Assembly: GCA_021776015.1 (NCBI GenBank)
Contig: JAJFGT010000096.1
Span: forward strand, 1 to 6,870
Direction of reading: 5' to 3'
Origin: Alphaproteobacteria bacterium
GTDB lineage: Bacteria > Pseudomonadota > Alphaproteobacteria > Micavibrionales > Micavibrionaceae
DNA length: 6,870 bases
A program made the position numbers and the translations under genes. This document shows, piece after piece, positions 1-6,870 of the stretch (position 1 is the stretch's first letter; every line of letters starts with the position of its first letter). The notes under the pieces were generated by a model that was not told the DNA's origin, searched no databases, and was given only the letters and a program-made list of their open reading frames with translations.

Positions 1-486
1 TTCGGGAAGAGCGGCATCAACGTCACTCCATTTGTTGTATGGGTTATCAATAAGCGCTCCATTAGAAGGCACTTGCTTTGCCAGAGCGAGAAAGATTTGC
101 TCCTTAGTCAAAGTGTAGCGTGGCGCTTTTTTGGAATTAGCAAGGACAATCCCATCAAAACCAATTTTCAATTCTGTAATATTATCTATACCGTTTTTGG
201 CACATAGCTTTTCTTCGCTCTCTTTGATCATACGAGATGCATCATTGATATCGGGATGCTCGTCACCAATCCCGCCACAAAAAAGTTTAAAGCCGCCGCC
301 CGTTCCTGTTGATTCAACAATTGGGGTTTTATAGTTTTCTGTATTTCCAAACTCCTCAGCCACAACGGTAACAAAGGGGTAGACAGTAGATGAACCCACA
401 ATTTGGATATGATCACTCGCCTGTGCCTGTCCAGAAATAGGCAAAAATAAAGCCGTTAAAACGGCTGACAATAGAATCTTCTTCAT
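1..486 (-). CDS. pstS: PstS, phosphate ABC transporter periplasmic binding protein (3' part beyond window)
   Basis: The first 162 residues of the periplasmic phosphate-binding subunit of the PstSCAB importer are visible; the gene runs off the left edge. Residues 1-23 form a Sec signal peptide: positive MKK, a hydrophobic core, then a likely cleavage after AQA. The mature protein begins with the family's phosphate-loop signature GSSTVYP (residues 31-37), followed by STGTGGG (59-65) and DASR (82-85). All three contribute phosphate ligands in PstS proteins. Cys70 and Cys95 fit the conserved pair seen in alphaproteobacterial members. The start is fixed by an AAGGAG Shine-Dalgarno 9 nt upstream, and by the signal peptide beginning exactly there. 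It lies 47 nt downstream of the arsR-type gene on the same strand with no obvious terminator between, so co-transcription is likely. Identity is near certain; the substrate (phosphate rather than another oxyanion) follows from the family. Confidence 0.93.
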   Translation of the reverse strand, partial: MKKILLSAVLTALFLPISGQAQASDHIQIVGSSTVYPFVTVVAEEFGNTENYKTPIVESTGTGGGFKLFCGGIGDEHPDINDASRMIKESEEKLCAKNGIDNITELKIGFDGIVLANSKKAPRYTLTKEQIFLALAKQVPSNGALIDNPYNKWSDVDAALPE

Positions 487-495
487 TATAGATTT

Positions 496-501
496 CTCCT
501 T
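496..501 (-). promoter_or_regulatory. Ribosome binding site of pstS
   Basis: AAGGAG on the minus strand, 9 nt before the pstS ATG at 486. It is the only clear consensus Shine-Dalgarno found at a gene start in this window, which contrasts with the probably leaderless arsR and membrane-protein genes. It fits an internal operon gene translated from a longer message. Confidence 0.8.
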
Positions 502-533
502 ATTGGTTTGTTGAGGGGTATATAAACAAGAGG

Positions 534-920
534 TCATTTCGATTTTTCCTTTTTTAATTCTACAAGCGGATGAGGCGAAGCAAGTTCAATCAAAACGCCT
601 CCTGGATTTATCTTACTGTCTTTAATATCAACGAATTCCACGGCACAACATTTTACAACCATGTACTGGATGAGTTCTTGACCAAATTCAAAATTAGCCG
701 TGTAGATAATAGAGCGTCCTTCACGTCGTGGTGTAATAAGACCCGCATTACTCATATGCGATAAGTGAAAAGAAAGAGTGTTATGAGGAATACCTAGTTT
801 TTTACTGATCTCACCCGCAGCAGATCCCTTTGCCCCCTTCTTAATAAGAAGACGAAATGTTCTCAGGCGTGTTTCCTGAGAGAGTGCGTCGAACGCTATG
901 AGTGCTTCTTGTATGTCCAT
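534..920 (-). CDS. ArsR/SmtB-family winged-helix repressor
   Basis: A small DNA-binding repressor of the ArsR/SmtB type, which in this family leaves its operator when it binds arsenite, a metal or another ligand. The winged-helix core is complete: 'FDALSQETRLRTFRLL', then a helix-turn-helix around 'ISKKLGIPHNTLSFHLSHM', then the wing 'GLITPRREGRSIIY'. The frame is open to an ATG at 950 (138 aa). The start at 920 (128 aa) is preferred, because a TTGACT-N16-TATAGT promoter would start transcription near 923, downstream of the first ATG, and family homology begins at MDIQEAL. The classic CxC site in the third helix is absent. A vicinal Cys91-Cys92 pair follows the last helix, recalling the C-terminal arsenite site of the Acidithiobacillus-type ArsR, but no third cysteine is visible. 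The lysine-rich tail ends 47 nt before pstS. Family is certain, ligand is not; it could also sense a metal or redox state. Confidence 0.9.
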   Translation of the reverse strand: MDIQEALIAFDALSQETRLRTFRLLIKKGAKGSAAGEISKKLGIPHNTLSFHLSHMSNAGLITPRREGRSIIYTANFEFGQELIQYMVVKCCAVEFVDIKDSKINPGGVLIELASPHPLVELKKEKSK

Positions 921-921
921 C

Positions 922-939
922 TGTCTAGAACTATAGACA
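922..939. promoter_or_regulatory. Candidate ArsR operator (inverted repeat)
   Basis: TGTCTA-N6-TAGACA, an interrupted 6-bp-arm palindrome. It covers the whole -10 box (930-935) and the predicted start of transcription of the arsR gene. A dimeric winged-helix repressor bound here would block its own promoter, the usual autoregulation in this family. The position is striking, but the arms are short, so binding is inferred. Confidence 0.45.
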
Positions 940-957
940 CATTTTATCATGAGTCAA
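930..957 (-). promoter_or_regulatory. Sigma70-type promoter of the arsR-pstS operon
   Basis: Minus-strand TTGACT (957-952), 16-nt spacer, TATAGT (935-930). The AT-rich block at 959-972 just upstream would suit an UP element. The expected start of transcription, about 7 nt after the -10 box, falls near 923, three bases before the ATG at 920. This implies an almost leaderless message and argues against the longer start at 950. Confidence 0.6.
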
Positions 958-1040: not shown

Positions 1041-1832
1041 ATGGAAAAAAAAGAAACTAATAACAACCAGTTTTTAACCAAAACATTTAATATTCTTACG
1101 GATACGGGTGTTCAGTTTTCAGCTGGAAACACCTGCCTCTTTTGGGCTGGTGGGGGCATTCCTCAAATCGCATCAACAGGCGCCCTTATTGGCTGTATTA
1201 CATTAAAAGCTTATTCAGAATTTTCAGGCGATGCTCACAATTTACTGGCAGATCCAAATGCGGCTTTAAAAATTGCCAGCGGAGCTTTAGGCATTATAGC
1301 CGTAAATTCAGTCATTAACGGTGAAATGATTCCCGCCATAACATCAACAGCTTTTGCCATTGGTAACTTAAGAGTCGCAGGTATTTTTGAAAATTTAAAA
1401 AGTAAATTATCTGATACATTTGGAAAAGTCGTAGGACAAATTGCGACACAACCCGAGACATTCTATACAATTGGATTAGGCCTGGCCGCACATATGGCAG
1501 CAGGAGACGCAACAGTTGCCCTCCCTTTTATAGACAAGACTGTTCCATTATCCATGTTAACTTATATTCCTACAGCTATTGGGGGTGGCTTGGCCGTTCG
1601 TAATGCTGTTACAGGAGAACATGATAAATCAAAACCATTTCTGTGGTTAGCAGGAGGTGTCGGAGCAACGGCAGGAGCTGGAATTTTGGGAGGTGCTGTA
1701 TTGCCCGCCCTAGCGAATGGTTTCTTTTCTAGTGCTTACATTAAAATTCAAGCCGATATTGAAGGTGGATATAAAAATCTTGGACAATCCATTAAAAATA
1801 ATGGGCAAAAACTCTGGCAAAGAATACTATAA
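1041..1832 (+). CDS. Unrecognised polytopic inner-membrane protein, 263 aa
   Basis: I do not recognise a family. The protein has a short polar N-terminus (MEKKETNNNQ) and no signal peptide. Four or five long Gly/Ala-rich hydrophobic stretches follow, at about residues 32-56, 76-107, 142-163, 168-186 and 198-228, and it ends with an amphipathic Lys/Gln-rich tail of about 35 residues. This suggests an integral membrane protein. The two halves look distantly alike: 'INGEMIPAI' (92-100) in the first lines up with 'LGGAVLPAL' (216-224) in the second, each followed by a polar segment with spaced Lys and Leu, so an old duplication is possible. The start at 1041 is supported by the promoter that places transcription there. 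It is transcribed divergently from arsR and converges on the DUF1543 gene 17 bp away. A small transporter or membrane scaffold is possible; no function is claimed. Confidence 0.75.
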   Translation: MEKKETNNNQFLTKTFNILTDTGVQFSAGNTCLFWAGGGIPQIASTGALIGCITLKAYSEFSGDAHNLLADPNAALKIASGALGIIAVNSVINGEMIPAITSTAFAIGNLRVAGIFENLKSKLSDTFGKVVGQIATQPETFYTIGLGLAAHMAAGDATVALPFIDKTVPLSMLTYIPTAIGGGLAVRNAVTGEHDKSKPFLWLAGGVGATAGAGILGGAVLPALANGFFSSAYIKIQADIEGGYKNLGQSIKNNGQKLWQRIL

Positions 1833-1849: not shown

Positions 1850-2350
1850 TTATATGGGTATGTATCGACAAATAAAATCAAAAGGTTTTTCTTTATCTGT
1901 TTTCACAAGATGAATAGAAAGATTGTTTTTCTGTACAACTTCATGAAGACAAATAGCCGTTTCAACCTCTATTTGAACATCTCTATGAGGTGATTTCCAG
2001 TTTTCAACCCCTTGTAATGCCTTTGCACGCGCTTTACTTTCTGTTTCCTCAACAATAAATACATTGTGATGAATTTCGGTAAATTGTGTGGGATCATACC
2101 CGCCAAGATTTAGAAAATATAATTTTTTAGAGCTTTGGTCAGAATCAGCTTTGAGGGCAATATCGTACCCATCGGCATAATTTAAGATTCCCCAGCAATC
2201 AATATGGAGACTTTCAGGTGTCCCCCACCATTGCCGACGTAATTCATCATAGCAATCTTCAATAGTATCCTCCACGACAAAACGAAGATCATGGACTTCT
2301 ATATTTGAATTATGAGTTACGCCACCAATATAAATTACAAATAAGTTCAT
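1850..2350 (-). CDS. DUF1543-type protein with two related repeats, 166 aa
   Basis: A small, probably cytoplasmic protein resembling DUF1543, a family of unknown function. The first unit begins 'MNLFVIYIGG' and continues with 'IEVHDLRFVVEDTIEDCYDE' and 'WWGTPESLHIDCW', the family's recognisable order. The second unit, from about residue 76, repeats the plan more loosely: 'KLYFLNLGG' (76-84), then 'EIHHNVFIVEETESKARAKA'. The protein is thus two tandem copies of one fold, as in several family members. There is no signal peptide or membrane segment. No clear Shine-Dalgarno precedes the ATG at 2350, which is chosen because the family motif starts at once. It is divergent from the HAD/receiver/PPDK fusion gene and convergent with the membrane-protein gene, so it is likely transcribed alone. 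The family call rests on remembered motifs. Confidence 0.8.
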   Translation of the reverse strand: MNLFVIYIGGVTHNSNIEVHDLRFVVEDTIEDCYDELRRQWWGTPESLHIDCWGILNYADGYDIALKADSDQSSKKLYFLNLGGYDPTQFTEIHHNVFIVEETESKARAKALQGVENWKSPHRDVQIEVETAICLHEVVQKNNLSIHLVKTDKEKPFDFICRYIPI

Positions 2351-2492: not shown

Positions 2493-5225
2493 GTGTATGA
2501 TCAAGGTATGGGAATGCCAAAAGACGCTAGATCTTTCTACAGTGATTTAAATCATCAAATTTCTAAGCATGACACTGTCGACTTATGCGTCGATTGTGAT
2601 GTCTTTGGAACACTTCTCGCTGACTTTACAAGTAGCTCATTGAATATCCCTCTAATGAAGGCGTTGCAATGGTTTCGTCAACAGGGCTATAGAATTCGCA
2701 TTGTCTCTTCTCATCCTATCCGCGCGGAAGCATTACTGAGAGAATCTGATTTTGATCAAAGTTTTTTTCCTGTCGTAGATAAAAAAGATCTTTCGAGTCC
2801 TCATAACTACGTTATTGCTCTTCGAATAGATGATGAACCCATTATGAACAGCTCATCAGAGTCCCCTCAATATGTTGCGACTTATCATCCTCACTCAGCA
2901 GAATTCCAAGCATTTTTATCTGCCTTTCTAGGAGAAGAGATAGCTCCACCCGACCCTAAAAATATTAAAAGAATGCTCATCGTAGATGATGATTTAGGGA
3001 GATATATGTCTCCCTCTTTTTTCTTTAAAAATTCTGAAATCCCTGTCGAAGTTGGTTATGCTACAAATAGCAAAAAGGCCCTCAAAATAATAGATGATTG
3101 GATCTCTCAAGGATATGGATTGGATCTTATCTCTTGTGATGACAATCGAAAAGGAATGGGAGAGCATGGAGTATCTGTCCTGACAACTCTTATGCAACAT
3201 ATCGAAAATATAAACCCTAATTATCTCCCTCCTCAAATGTTTATTCACTCTAAAGGTGATGTTGATATCCCTCTTGATTTTAAATGGGGAACGCCAGATT
3301 CATTACAATTTCAAGAGTTTCAAGCAATGGCTCGTGAAGGAAAATTCTATGATTTTATTTTAGGATTAACCTCTGCAAAATGCTTTGAAAATCATCATTT
3401 TTTCTCCACAAAACTTCGAAAATATTGCAATCAGCATTGGGGAACAAATTTTGCCACTTCAGCCTCAGAACAACATTTTTATTATAATCCAAAGGCATCA
3501 CTAGACTTAGAAGACATACAAAATCTTATCGGCCCCAAAAACTCCTCAGAAAATATTTTTGATCGATGTAGAACGGATCAAATCAGTAGCTTAAGAGGAC
3601 GAAAAAGACTCTCTTATCTGAAGGGATGGGAATATGCCGCAGGAATTGATTTTAAGAATGCTGTTGGGGATGCTGTTGTCGGACGTTTAGCTTTTGATAA
3701 AGAGGATATTGAAACTTTAAAATCTCAAGATTTACAAACACCCATTATTTTGTGTATTGAAAAATACGATCCCAAATATATTTCATTATTATCTCATGTA
3801 GAGGGAGTCATTTTACTAGGAGAGGATCCACCACATTTAAAACTCATATTAGATAATGCTGGTATAAGCGGTATTTTAACAATGGACCGAGAAGACAATC
3901 AAAGAGAAAAAAAATTGATATTGGAGGGAAAAACCCTCATATACTGTAATAAATACTGGGATGATGATAAAGAGGAATGGGCTCTTAGAAATATCTTCGT
4001 ATCTGTAGGAGATACAGTCTCTATTGACTATGACATTGTTGCCACATCTTCCATGCACGAATCTTCATCGGAAGAAGAAATTATTGGACAATTTTTTCCT
4101 ATCGAAATTCCTTATCAAAAATCATTCACTCATTATCCCCCTCATCACTTCTCAAGATTAAGCTCTGCTGCTGATAGTTTACGAAAAAAATATTCTTCTC
4201 TCACAATAGTCTCTAATGCAGATACCGCAGAACAAATAGGCGAAGCTTGTCTTCAAAAATCAGAGGGGATAGGTCTTATTCGAAGTGAACATATGTTTTA
4301 TGAACCTGATCACCTAGAGCTTCTTCAAAAAATCATGACCACAGATAATAATGAAGAGAGACAGCATGCCTTAAATGCTTTGCAGGTTTTGCATTCAAAA
4401 GATATAGATGCCCTCCTATGCGCTGCTAAGAAAATAGAGCCTCCCTTCCCTCTGACATTCAGATTATTAGATGCCCCATTAGAAGAATTTTGTCCACCCC
4501 ATCAACAGAAGACTATTATAGACCGTGTAGGAGAAACTCAAGGCCGTGGAGTACAATTTGCCTTACAAACACAGGGGCTTTATGAAATGCAGATTAAGGC
4601 TCTTTTTGAATCCATACAACGATCTAGTTATACCCCCAACATTCGTATTATGGTTCCACATCTTCGTACTGTAGATGAAGCCCTTAGGGTAAAAAATATG
4701 ATCAGTCCGTTAGCAGATCAAATCCCTTTTGAATTTGGTGGAATGATTGAAACCGTTGAGTCTGTTAAGAATATTGAGTCCTTAGCACCTCATTTTCATT
4801 TTGCGAGTATTGGAACAAATGATCTCATGTCAGATCTCATGGGCGGTATTCATAGAGTTGACTATGAAGGCATTACAGAATGGATGATTGAGAATAAGGT
4901 CAAAGGAGACTCTCCTTTCAAAAAAATGCCTCCCATTCTTCAAGACACAATGCAATACATCGCCAATGCTTCACGAACAGCCAATCCCAATATTCATCTA
5001 TCAGCCTGCGGTCAACATATGGGAACAGATGAAATCGCTCCAGATCTCGCTTTATCAATAGGATTAGACAGTATCTCAGTCCCCAATAGGGATATCCTTA
5101 GTGTCCGTCTATTATCAGCATACTATGCGAATGCAAAACGCCACGATCTTAACAAAGCAGGGAAAACTAAGATAACAGAGAGTTCCATTACACAATCTGA
5201 TCTATTACAGAGATACAAAATTTAA
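2493..5225 (+). CDS. HAD-like / receiver-like / PPDK-type phosphohistidine and PEP-binding fusion protein, 910 aa
   Basis: A large, probably cytoplasmic protein. Residues ~29-120 are HAD-like: nucleophile Asp36 in DVFGTL, Ser72/73, Lys97/98 and the acidic pair Asp113-Asp114. Residues ~158-270 resemble a response-regulator receiver: acidic pocket Asp165-167, phospho-acceptor candidate Asp216, Ser253, and Lys264 in 'DFKWG'. From about 375 it follows pyruvate phosphate dikinase (PPDK). The swivelling domain (~380-520) has 'GEDPPH' where PPDK has 'GGMTSH', placing His448 on the phospho-histidine. The PEP/pyruvate barrel (~545-880) keeps Arg597 (GIGLIRSEHMF), Arg657 (RLLDAPLEEF), Glu753 (GGMIE), Asn776-Asp777 (SIGTND) and Cys839 (SACGQH). 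These match the PPDK catalytic set. The ATP-grasp domain of PPDK is absent, so ATP-dependent PEP synthesis is unlikely; phosphate transfer from PEP to His448, or a regulatory role, is the inference. The start is GTG 2493, but ATG 2514 behind a weak AAGG is equally possible. The 3' end overlaps the convergent gene by 21 bp. Confidence 0.9.
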   Translation: MYDQGMGMPKDARSFYSDLNHQISKHDTVDLCVDCDVFGTLLADFTSSSLNIPLMKALQWFRQQGYRIRIVSSHPIRAEALLRESDFDQSFFPVVDKKDLSSPHNYVIALRIDDEPIMNSSSESPQYVATYHPHSAEFQAFLSAFLGEEIAPPDPKNIKRMLIVDDDLGRYMSPSFFFKNSEIPVEVGYATNSKKALKIIDDWISQGYGLDLISCDDNRKGMGEHGVSVLTTLMQHIENINPNYLPPQMFIHSKGDVDIPLDFKWGTPDSLQFQEFQAMAREGKFYDFILGLTSAKCFENHHFFSTKLRKYCNQHWGTNFATSASEQHFYYNPKASLDLEDIQNLIGPKNSSENIFDRCRTDQISSLRGRKRLSYLKGWEYAAGIDFKNAVGDAVVGRLAFDKEDIETLKSQDLQTPIILCIEKYDPKYISLLSHVEGVILLGEDPPHLKLILDNAGISGILTMDREDNQREKKLILEGKTLIYCNKYWDDDKEEWALRNIFVSVGDTVSIDYDIVATSSMHESSSEEEIIGQFFPIEIPYQKSFTHYPPHHFSRLSSAADSLRKKYSSLTIVSNADTAEQIGEACLQKSEGIGLIRSEHMFYEPDHLELLQKIMTTDNNEERQHALNALQVLHSKDIDALLCAAKKIEPPFPLTFRLLDAPLEEFCPPHQQKTIIDRVGETQGRGVQFALQTQGLYEMQIKALFESIQRSSYTPNIRIMVPHLRTVDEALRVKNMISPLADQIPFEFGGMIETVESVKNIESLAPHFHFASIGTNDLMSDLMGGIHRVDYEGITEWMIENKVKGDSPFKKMPPILQDTMQYIANASRTANPNIHLSACGQHMGTDEIAPDLALSIGLDSISVPNRDILSVRLLSAYYANAKRHDLNKAGKTKITESSITQSDLLQRYKI

Positions 5226-5840
5226 AAGCTTGTTATACCTATCAAGAGAAAATTCATATAATTGACCCTTCTTCTTTGAAATAGGGCATCCAATCCACAT
5301 AGGAATTGGGTGATGCCATGCAAACTCCATAATCATAGAACGTTCAAAAGGCTTTAGTAATTGAGGAGCATCACATTCTATATCTTTAATCTCAGCTTTA
5401 CTCTTTTGCTCTTTTGTCCAAACAACATAAGAACCATATGATTTCCAAAAGCCTTCTGCCCCCAATTCCATTAAATCAGGTGAAGATTTCAAAATAGGCA
5501 TCCCTTTTAAATTTTTCTCTATAATCATGATCAAATCATCAAGTGAAGACTCTTTAGAGACTCTATTCAGAACAGAGATAAGAAACAGTTGCTGTTCTTT
5601 CTTCGGCATAGCTTTAATACGGAGACCATAAAAGAAAAAATTTTCATGTTTATCGCTAAAAAAAGCTTCCAAAGCTAAATCAGATGGCGCATTTAAAACC
5701 CAATCCATTAAGTCTTTTATCTCAACAGGATTTGGAGACACAGGAATATGCTTTGCATTTTCCCACATTCCATCTTCTGCAATTTGCCAGTGAGTGATAA
5801 ATTTTCCTGATGTTTCGGAAGAAAGTTTTTTTATAAACAT
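5205..5840 (-). CDS. Unrecognised soluble protein, 211 aa
   Basis: I do not recognise a family. There is no signal peptide or membrane helix. The protein looks globular and mixed alpha/beta, with many aromatic residues. The most distinctive parts are 'ELGAEGFWKSYGSYVVWTKE' in the middle and 'MEFAWHHPIPMWIGCPISKK' near the C-terminus, where a His-His pair, two Trp and a Cys cluster; these would be the first places to look for a conserved site. The ATG at 5840 is the first in frame and has no Shine-Dalgarno, although a TAAAAT box at 5852-5847 would place transcription close to it. It follows the upstream gene on the same strand after 49 nt, so the two are probably an operon. Its last seven codons, including the stop, lie inside the 3' end of the fusion gene on the opposite strand. 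Coding status is well supported by length and placement. Confidence 0.75.
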   Translation of the reverse strand: MFIKKLSSETSGKFITHWQIAEDGMWENAKHIPVSPNPVEIKDLMDWVLNAPSDLALEAFFSDKHENFFFYGLRIKAMPKKEQQLFLISVLNRVSKESSLDDLIMIIEKNLKGMPILKSSPDLMELGAEGFWKSYGSYVVWTKEQKSKAEIKDIECDAPQLLKPFERSMIMEFAWHHPIPMWIGCPISKKKGQLYEFSLDRYNKLLNFVSL

Positions 5841-5889: not shown

Positions 5890-6870
5890 CTATTGAAGAG
5901 TAAAGGTCTCCAGCATAAGGTTAAAAGTACCAACACTTTTTGCCCACTCCATATAATCAAATCTCTGATCAGGAATAATCATAAAGACTATGAAATAACT
6001 TGAGCTTGTTTCGTTATATGAAACCCACATTTCATCCCCTACACCTTCAACAGATCTATAGATCTTAATAGGTGAAAAAGCGACAGTCCCATCTTTTTTC
6101 CCTCCAGATCTTTCTATAACATTTACTTTTTCTACATTAAGGCCTTTTCTCCGTTTTTCTTTAATCATTTTATCTATTCTTGTATTAACGTCAGGCAAAA
6201 GAGTCTTTGAAACCAATATAGTTTGAATATATCCTTTTTTCTTATCCACATACGCCTCGTCTGCCCCTCTTTTCTTTAAATCTATGACATGTCCAAATGT
6301 TGTAGACATATCCCGAGTCGTATCATAATCATCTATAATATATTGCAAAGTCTTAGGGTAACTATGACCTGCTATATTAGAATATTCATAGATGTTTGTA
6401 AGCTGATACGAACCTTCATCTGGATTAGAAAGCCTAAGAAGAGTCATTGTCCATAATTGGTTGTCCCCATGTTCCTCCTCCATCTGGATAGGAAGAAAAT
6501 ATTCTGACAAAATAATACGATCACCATTTCTTTGAACAACAGCACGAACAGTATATGAACGCCCTTCTAAGAAAACACTATATTTTGCATGGATCAAATC
6601 CGCAGAAAAAACCTTTAACCCCCTTATGTATATCCCCTTTACAGACATATAATGTATAAACCAGTGCTCAATACTCGTGTAAGCATTCATTTTAATGGCT
6701 TGCATCATAAATATTTCACGGTCATCATCATCAATAGGAGGGCTTACATATTTAACAATTGTTCCTAACAGACGCGTACTTAGCCCAGAGGTATCCTTCT
6801 CAAGCACAACTTCTTCAGAATTAGTATCATCTAATTCTACCTGATCTTCAAATTCCTTATGCTCGTTGTC
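5890..6870 (-). CDS. Unrecognised protein, N-terminus beyond window, at least 326 aa
   Basis: I do not recognise a family. The frame stays open from the stop at 5890-5892 to the right edge, so the gene is 5'-partial. A GTG at 6807 could start a 305-aa product but has no visible support. The 21 codons upstream of it encode an acidic stretch (beginning DNEHKEFEDQVELDD) that looks like a continuing linker. The visible part then has 'YVSPPIDDDDREIFMMQAIK', a predicted beta-rich region (residues ~75-140 from the edge, including 'SYTVRAVVQRNGDRIILSEY'), a Lys/Arg-rich helix ('RIDKMIKEKRRKGLNVEK') and a C-terminal hydrophobic strand 'SSYFIVFMIIPDQ'. There is no cysteine in the visible 326 residues, which is common in exported proteins, but the N-terminus that would show a signal is missing. 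It is probably co-transcribed with the 211-aa gene 49 nt downstream. Confidence 0.75.
   Translation of the reverse strand, partial: DNEHKEFEDQVELDDTNSEEVVLEKDTSGLSTRLLGTIVKYVSPPIDDDDREIFMMQAIKMNAYTSIEHWFIHYMSVKGIYIRGLKVFSADLIHAKYSVFLEGRSYTVRAVVQRNGDRIILSEYFLPIQMEEEHGDNQLWTMTLLRLSNPDEGSYQLTNIYEYSNIAGHSYPKTLQYIIDDYDTTRDMSTTFGHVIDLKKRGADEAYVDKKKGYIQTILVSKTLLPDVNTRIDKMIKEKRRKGLNVEKVNVIERSGGKKDGTVAFSPIKIYRSVEGVGDEMWVSYNETSSSYFIVFMIIPDQRFDYMEWAKSVGTFNLMLETFTLQ

Follow-up and report, generated by a model that had tools for sequence, protein, structure and literature searches.

The 6870-base alphaproteobacterial DNA stretch analysed here (the window), which is the complete contig C280 of a draft genome of 1.52 Mb and 86% completeness, encodes a fusion protein composed, in this order, of a HAD-like domain, a receiver domain, a swivelling domain of the pyruvate phosphate dikinase (PPDK) type and a PPDK-type barrel that binds phosphoenolpyruvate (PEP). 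The order is confirmed, and the protein represents a real, conserved and lineage-restricted family, the HAD-bearing branch of which is as described in an earlier note made from the sequence alone. With a probability of roughly 40%, histidine H443 of the swivelling domain receives phosphate from PEP and likely passes it to aspartate D211 of the receiver in the same chain, the protein having no ATP-grasp domain. Conservation gives good support to phosphorylation of H443 by PEP, from where the phosphate would probably go on to D211. The parts are of known kinds, namely PEP-utilizing enzymes and receiver–enzyme fusions. Residue numbering throughout is that of protein P0001, counted from ATG 2508. 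The gene and its features are listed below; counts out of 21 and out of 19 refer to the two alignments of family members described further on.

2514-5225, + strand: fusion gene, likely start ATG 2514, 903 amino acids (aa)
2493 and 2508, + strand: alternative starts of the fusion gene, GTG 2493 (910 aa) and ATG 2508 (905 aa)
2503-2506, + strand: AAGG, possible ribosome-binding site, 7 nt upstream of ATG 2514
2514-2951, + strand: compact HAD-like domain, residues 3-148, motifs in 5/5 sequences, profile match to PDB 4ygq at E 1.9e-4, PF00702 below its cut-off in 5/5
2598-2600, + strand: D31, predicted HAD nucleophile (motif I, CDVFGT), residue at +2 Phe33
2952-3446, + strand: atypical receiver domain, residues 149-313, with a low-confidence stretch near 273-299
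3138-3140, + strand: D211, predicted phospho-acceptor aspartate, aligned to the receiver aspartate, 21/21 rows and 17/17 rows with a letter
3447-3632, + strand: linker from receiver to swivelling domain, mostly of low predicted local distance difference test (pLDDT) values, no fold assigned
3633-4037, + strand: PPDK-type swivelling (phosphohistidine) domain, residues 376-510
3834-3836, + strand: H443, predicted phosphohistidine, 21/21 and 18/19 rows
4194-5147, + strand: PPDK-type PEP-binding barrel, residues 563-880
4281-4283, + strand: R592, PEP-site arginine, 19/19 rows
4461-4463, + strand: R652, PEP-site arginine, 18/19 rows
4749-4751, + strand: E748, PEP site, 19/19 rows
4818-4823, + strand: N771 and D772, PEP site, N in 17/19 and D in 19/19 rows
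5007-5009, + strand: C834, PEP site, 19/19 rows

Of the three possible starts, ATG 2514 is the likeliest, since the AAGG at 2503-2506 precedes it and its Met is aligned with the first Met in all four full-length homologues. These homologues (897-905 aa) were retrieved by a protein search of public assemblies, where they reside on contigs of 3391-5094 bases, and are 42-47% identical to the query over 96-97% of its length. The domain order is the same in all five sequences, and the homologues retain the HAD, receiver, histidine and PEP-site residues, the one exception being an Arg in place of K92 in one of them.

Scans of the whole protein against Pfam and NCBIfam found the barrel alone with confidence. 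No ATP-grasp family was among the matches, in line with the previous description of this domain as missing. PF02896 is present in two genes of the same genome, those for PPDK and for the fusion protein. Confidence in the two structure models was middling (mean pLDDT 63.8 and 63.0; predicted template modelling score 0.48 and 0.40). A Foldseek search with a 545-residue model gave no matches at E 0.001 or better, its top row being pyruvate kinase (prob 0.25). In the fold comparison the receiver and swivelling folds matched PDB entries.

The PPDK-like character of the C-terminal half, postulated earlier, was borne out by profiles, fold comparison and catalytic residues. The fusion protein shares with the C-terminal half of PPDK both the swivelling phosphohistidine domain and the PEP barrel with its catalytic residues, and H443 is aligned with the catalytic histidine of PPDK in the profile alignment; comparison of a profile of the swivelling part to the PDB returned nothing of use. 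The PEP site comprises six residues (Arg, Arg, Glu, Asn, Asp and Cys), the roles of which are taken over from work on PPDK; E748 is presumably the metal ligand and C834 the catalytic cysteine. All six, together with H443, are present in the five full-length members, and 16 of 19 rows have the complete set, which is broken in L006, L010 and L014.

Conservation was assessed in two alignments. The larger one consists of the window fragment, the four homologues and 16 sequences of subfamily B, the members of which are about 750-800 aa long and comprise receiver-like, swivelling and barrel parts. Left out of these 21 rows were L039 and L040 (judged by name or length to be the same proteins as P0123 and P0130), L042 (a short frame), three HAD-less relatives, and L010, L013 and L014; the 19-row alignment includes the HAD-less relatives and the last three sequences. 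D161, D211, R304 and H443 are invariant in all 21 rows, two pairs of which are more than 90% alike. In the 19-row alignment D161 is found in 17 of the 18 rows with a letter at this position, L010 having Gln. In one member of subfamily B, P0129 (936 aa), the receiver-like part is preceded by a long extension at the N-terminus and starts only near residue 180.

The receiver-like domain was likewise borne out by profile and fold comparison, the latter revealing a CheY-like fold. Each of the five full-length members has the acidic pair D160/D161 as well as D211. At position 160 of the 19-row alignment, Asp is shared by L013 and all eight rows of the window's branch, whereas eight subfamily B rows carry Gln or Asn and L010 carries Ser. 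Pfam Response_reg did not rise above its cut-off; one of eight members was hit at E 0.12, and there was no match at the fusion locus. When a profile of the receiver part was compared to the PDB, five receiver rows were obtained (E 0.0074-0.4), ranked below five spurious rows, namely four designed PPR proteins and an alpha-solenoid protein, which arise from summed weak repeat matches. K249, in the motif HSK and next to S248, was considered as the conserved receiver lysine and dropped, as it follows beta 4 rather than beta 5 in the model; in the window's branch this position is Lys in six of eight sequences, Arg in one and Gln in one. Pseudo- and atypical receivers, as characterized in the available part of PMC12632262, have in common with the fusion family a receiver fold in which part of the DD, T and K set is altered. 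The fusion family differs from them in that its phospho-acceptor Asp is invariant across the 21 rows.

Among the domain calls of the earlier note that of the HAD-like domain was upheld least firmly. Four HAD motifs occur in order, D31, T35, S67, D108 and D109 being conserved in all five proteins and the motif III lysine, K92, reading K, R, K, K and K (four Lys, one Arg). A profile of this part matched PDB entry 4ygq at E 1.9e-4. PF00702 stayed below its cut-off in all five HAD-bearing proteins, as did DUF7652 on this part of the fusion protein (E 0.029 with the whole protein and 0.005 with the part alone). In the fold comparison the match list was filled by receiver and PPDK rows, so that the HAD part was hardly probed. 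The Foldseek list contained 2p9j_G, which we take to be a HAD protein, at prob 0.95, the aligned range not being stated; no other displayed row was recognized as HAD, which is not evidence against the fold. The motifs are those of capless members of the HAD superfamily (CDVFGT as motif I, S67 as motif II, K92 as motif III and D108/D109 as motif IV), and stand-alone compact HAD-like open reading frames (ORFs) occur in the same bacterial order as the fusion protein, probably Micavibrionales. HAD phosphatases have Asp at the +2 position, where the fusion protein has Phe; an aromatic residue at +2 occurs in haloacid dehalogenases. With HAD profile A4 a long frame was found, among 142 genomes of the order, in the own genome only; the other matches come from six genomes and fall in frames of 153-348 aa, mostly small HAD-like ORFs. 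By eye, no PEP-barrel gene was recognized among the ORFs listed near them at six loci. At two loci, L068 (8612-9578) and L070 (8365-9977), small ORFs adjoin one another, several of them HAD-like, and these are possible kin of the N-terminal domain.

A HAD-less version of the protein occurs in three genomes of the order (L004 in G091, L005 in G097 and L006 in G092; 702, 758 and 751 aa, respectively). The conserved unit, given these relatives, is the receiver–PEP core and not the HAD domain. The receiver-to-swivel profile A8 matched 19 of the 142 order genomes at E 1e-5. In one of them, G094, only the receiver was matched in a 1085-aa frame, leaving 18; among these, G001 shows nothing but the swivelling part, close to the edge of a contig, and G130 has its N-terminal part and its barrel match on separate contigs. 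Across 385 genomes of the class and 398 of the phylum, in overlapping draws (sharing at least the own genome and G443) with up to four candidates scored per genome, A8 found the whole arrangement in the own genome alone. Its other matches, in 19 class and 23 phylum genomes, were to the receiver or the swivelling part, never to both; seven class rows matching the swivelling part sit in frames of 895-914 aa, the size of PPDK. With 18 of 142 order genomes carrying it, and no genome but its own in the class and phylum draws, the family has been seen in a single order and looks like an invention specific to this lineage. A search with the 19-row alignment, in which only candidates sharing most words were scored, returned the known five proteins and one Enzyme I-like protein. 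Among viral contigs 16 stretches fitted a pattern and none was confirmed; among GTDB r220 contigs none of 25 stretches was confirmed for the HAD-bearing family, and ten subfamily B loci were found. Three frames of 1408-1431 aa from the phylum but outside the class (L106 in G561:C303, G615:C70 and G625:C216) match the swivelling part of the profile only.

In a tree of 46 barrel sequences a starred branch (97/93) separates the 19 family rows from the rest, including 13 PPDKs from the order. Within the family, a starred group (95/94) unites the three HAD-less relatives with the five HAD-bearing rows, which make up a clade of their own (95/98); the position of this clade beside HAD-less kin would fit a single gain of the HAD domain by a receiver–PEP protein. 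The tree is rooted at its midpoint only, and the long branches of P0121, L010, L014, L013, L005, L006, P0090 and P0006 make finer placing unsure. Two PEP-barrel proteins with a different N-terminus, P0071 and P0080 (646 and 666 aa), for which the precomputed Pfam list has no ATP-grasp, are placed weakly beside the family (65/77). The precomputed list also lacks ATP-grasp for P0006 (980 aa), a PEP-utilizing protein the first ~420 residues of which appear, by eye, to form a second, degenerate PEP barrel ahead of the swivelling domain and barrel.

The usual acceptor of phosphate from a PEP-phosphorylated histidine is HPr. No HPr was found in the own genome (a draft 86% complete) by a search that in a control was positive in seven of 14 known genomes. 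Among the matches listed, HPr is present in 25 of the 142 order genomes, all in families f2, f4 and f6, and in none of the 104 genomes of the window's bacterial family, f1. Receivers, for their part, take phosphate from phosphoramidates, of which phosphohistidine is one. Transfer from PEP to H443 and on to D211 is the simplest reading because the residues for the PEP-to-histidine step are complete, neither an ATP-grasp domain nor an HPr acceptor is found, D211 is fixed together with H443 and D161, and receivers accept phosphoramidates.

The proposed mechanism would comprise three steps. The barrel would bind PEP and Mg, phosphorylate H443 and release pyruvate, as in PPDK and Enzyme I; for this step the conserved residues are suggestive. 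The swivelling domain would then swing to the receiver, where D211 would accept the phosphate from the phosphohistidine. Finally, the HAD-like domain might read or slowly reset the phosphorylated state, which is the weakest of the three proposals. H443 or D211 could hand phosphate to D31, giving a phospho-aspartate which, with Phe and no Asp at +2, would not be cleared fast, so that a fast phosphatase is unlikely. The existence of HAD-less kin suggests that the core may work without the HAD domain. The level of phosphorylation would report the PEP/pyruvate ratio to the partners of the receiver. Somewhat more tentatively than the transfer itself, we propose a self-contained PEP-fed phosphorelay, in which the HAD domain would be an eraser or reader, no histidine kinase would be needed and the PEP/pyruvate ratio would be read directly, in bacteria without HPr.

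A number of observations weigh against the transfer from PEP through H443 to D211. No Lys is aligned at the end of beta 5, as judged for subfamily B from the profile alignment and for the window's branch solely from alignment to subfamily B and from a middling-confidence model; in ordinary receivers a Lys at this position helps to bind the phosphoryl group, according to the available text of PMC12632262. The same text states, in favour of the transfer, that a receiver altered at DD, T or K may still be phosphorylated. K249 is replaced by Arg or Gln in two of the three HAD-less relatives, Q-D or N-D stands for D-D in eight subfamily B rows, and the alignment between receivers of the window's branch and those of subfamily B is weak (prob 20, E 1.1e-3). 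Ahead of the histidine, the TSH of PPDK reads PPH in the fusion protein and SEH in the four homologues. The acid-base Asp of phosphatase members is missing from the HAD-like domain, its +2 residue being Phe in all five proteins. In the HAD-less L006, N771 is replaced by Gly. Two degenerate paralogues, perhaps regulatory relics, deviate as well: L010 (G075) has Gly for the swivel histidine and Lys for N771 and has lost D161, and L014 (G081) has Asn for R652. The distance from H443 to the Asp is unreadable from either model, given their middling confidence, and the gene context offers nothing suggesting an output. Other subfamilies are represented in 14 genomes (G001-G005, G042, G057, G075, G122, G126, G130, G131, G133 and G139), ten of which have HPr, which H443 could serve there; the argument from missing HPr is therefore limited to the window's branch. 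The PEP-driven relay put forward in the earlier note accordingly fares unevenly: it fits the invariant H443, D161 and D211, the PEP site complete in 16 of 19 rows and the lack of HPr in the family, and it is weakened by the lysine that seems to be missing at beta 5 and by the HAD +2 Phe.

The receiver could instead act as a switch that a separate histidine kinase operates, turning the PEP-to-histidine reaction on and off while the swivel histidine feeds another protein or a small molecule; the role of the receiver would then be regulatory. We regard this as possible, if rather doubtful. The own genome has seven HisKA and 15 Response_reg matches, and its HisKA proteins could serve the receiver from outside; beside the HAD-less relative in G097, an ORF on the facing strand is by eye a PAS histidine kinase. 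Receiver–PPDK fusions are, moreover, described as response regulators with enzymatic output in the available part of PMC5847659. Against such a switch, no histidine kinase was recognized by eye among the ORFs of the window or those listed near the relatives in G091 and G092, and the usual receiver lysine seems to be missing. That same gap, and the HAD domain without an Asp at +2, would suit a PEP-dependent phosphotransferase acting on a small molecule or a protein, comparable to rifampicin phosphotransferase or Enzyme I, with the HAD-like and receiver-like domains as a scaffold for substrate binding or docking. Such an enzyme would be in keeping with the conservation of swivel and barrel residues alongside N-terminal parts that differ from one subfamily to another, and where HPr exists alongside other subfamilies it would be a possible protein acceptor. 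It is nonetheless unlikely: D161 and D211 are invariant in 21 rows and D31, T35, S67, D108 and D109 in five of five, beyond the needs of a mere scaffold, and in the window's own family HPr was not among the matches listed for any genome.

That the barrel merely binds PEP and changes shape, the protein being a catalytically idle PEP/pyruvate sensor from which no phosphate is transferred, is very improbable. Three of 19 relatives have indeed lost a PEP-site residue (N771 in L006 and L010, R652 in L014), L010 the histidine too, but none of the five full-length members lacks any of the six residues or the histidine. An artefact of assembly or annotation joining unrelated genes, which the short contig and incomplete draft might suggest, is refuted by the single open frame and by the four homologues, 42-47% identical, that share the domain order.

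The fusion protein differs from its closest known counterparts. PPDK has an ATP-grasp domain where the fusion protein has the HAD-like and receiver domains; TIGR01828 scores 132.2 bits against a cut-off of 843.45 and covers residues 555-864 only, and the fusion barrel lies across the starred branch from the PPDKs of the order. Enzyme I, too, transfers phosphate from PEP to a histidine without ATP by means of a swivelling domain and a PEP barrel, as proposed here. The fusion protein is nearer to PPDK than to Enzyme I (PtsI/PtsP), TIGR01417 scoring 62.5 against a cut-off of 341.7 bits, and the HPr-binding domain of Enzyme I is not among its Pfam matches. Bacteroides-like receiver–PPDK fusions presumably keep the ATP-grasp domain. 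The statement that no described enzyme has this order stands in part only: fusions of a receiver to PPDK parts are in print (PMC4395418 and, for the Bacteroides-like ones, PMC5847659), and in the available portions of both they are described without mention of a HAD domain or of ATP-grasp loss. PPDK is listed, in the accessible text of PMC4395418, among the effector domains associated with Asp-less receivers, whereas the fusion family keeps the receiver Asp. In PMC4001038, as far as its available text goes, the receiver protein and the PPDK-like protein are products of separate neighbouring genes. Titles and abstract openings of the open-access literature, a coverage outside which most subscription journals fall, contained no mention of this domain order.

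Bacteria use ATP-driven His-to-Asp two-component systems alongside the PEP-driven His-to-His phosphotransferase system. If PEP phosphate were indeed fed straight to a receiver Asp, the two chemistries would be joined and carbon status would be read out directly; the relay would then be a new kind of signalling protein, a two-component system running on PEP instead of ATP.

The larger ORFs on the + strand of the window are the fusion gene and one for a 263-aa protein without assigned function. As the ORFs flanking the fusion gene (1850-2350 and 5205-5840) are on the opposite strand, the gene probably stands alone. Of the products other than the fusion protein, none of those encoded at 1041-1832 (+), 5205-5840 (-) and 5890-6870 (-) has a Pfam match, and that encoded at 1850-2350 (-) is a DUF1543 protein (PF07566, E 4.4e-17). 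At the left end, positions 1-537 (-) encode a PstS-like phosphate-binding protein truncated at the contig end (PF12849, E 1.1e-20) and 534-950 (-) an ArsR-type regulator (NF033788, 57.4 bits against a cut-off of 55); these two ORFs share 4 bases and are likely to be co-transcribed.

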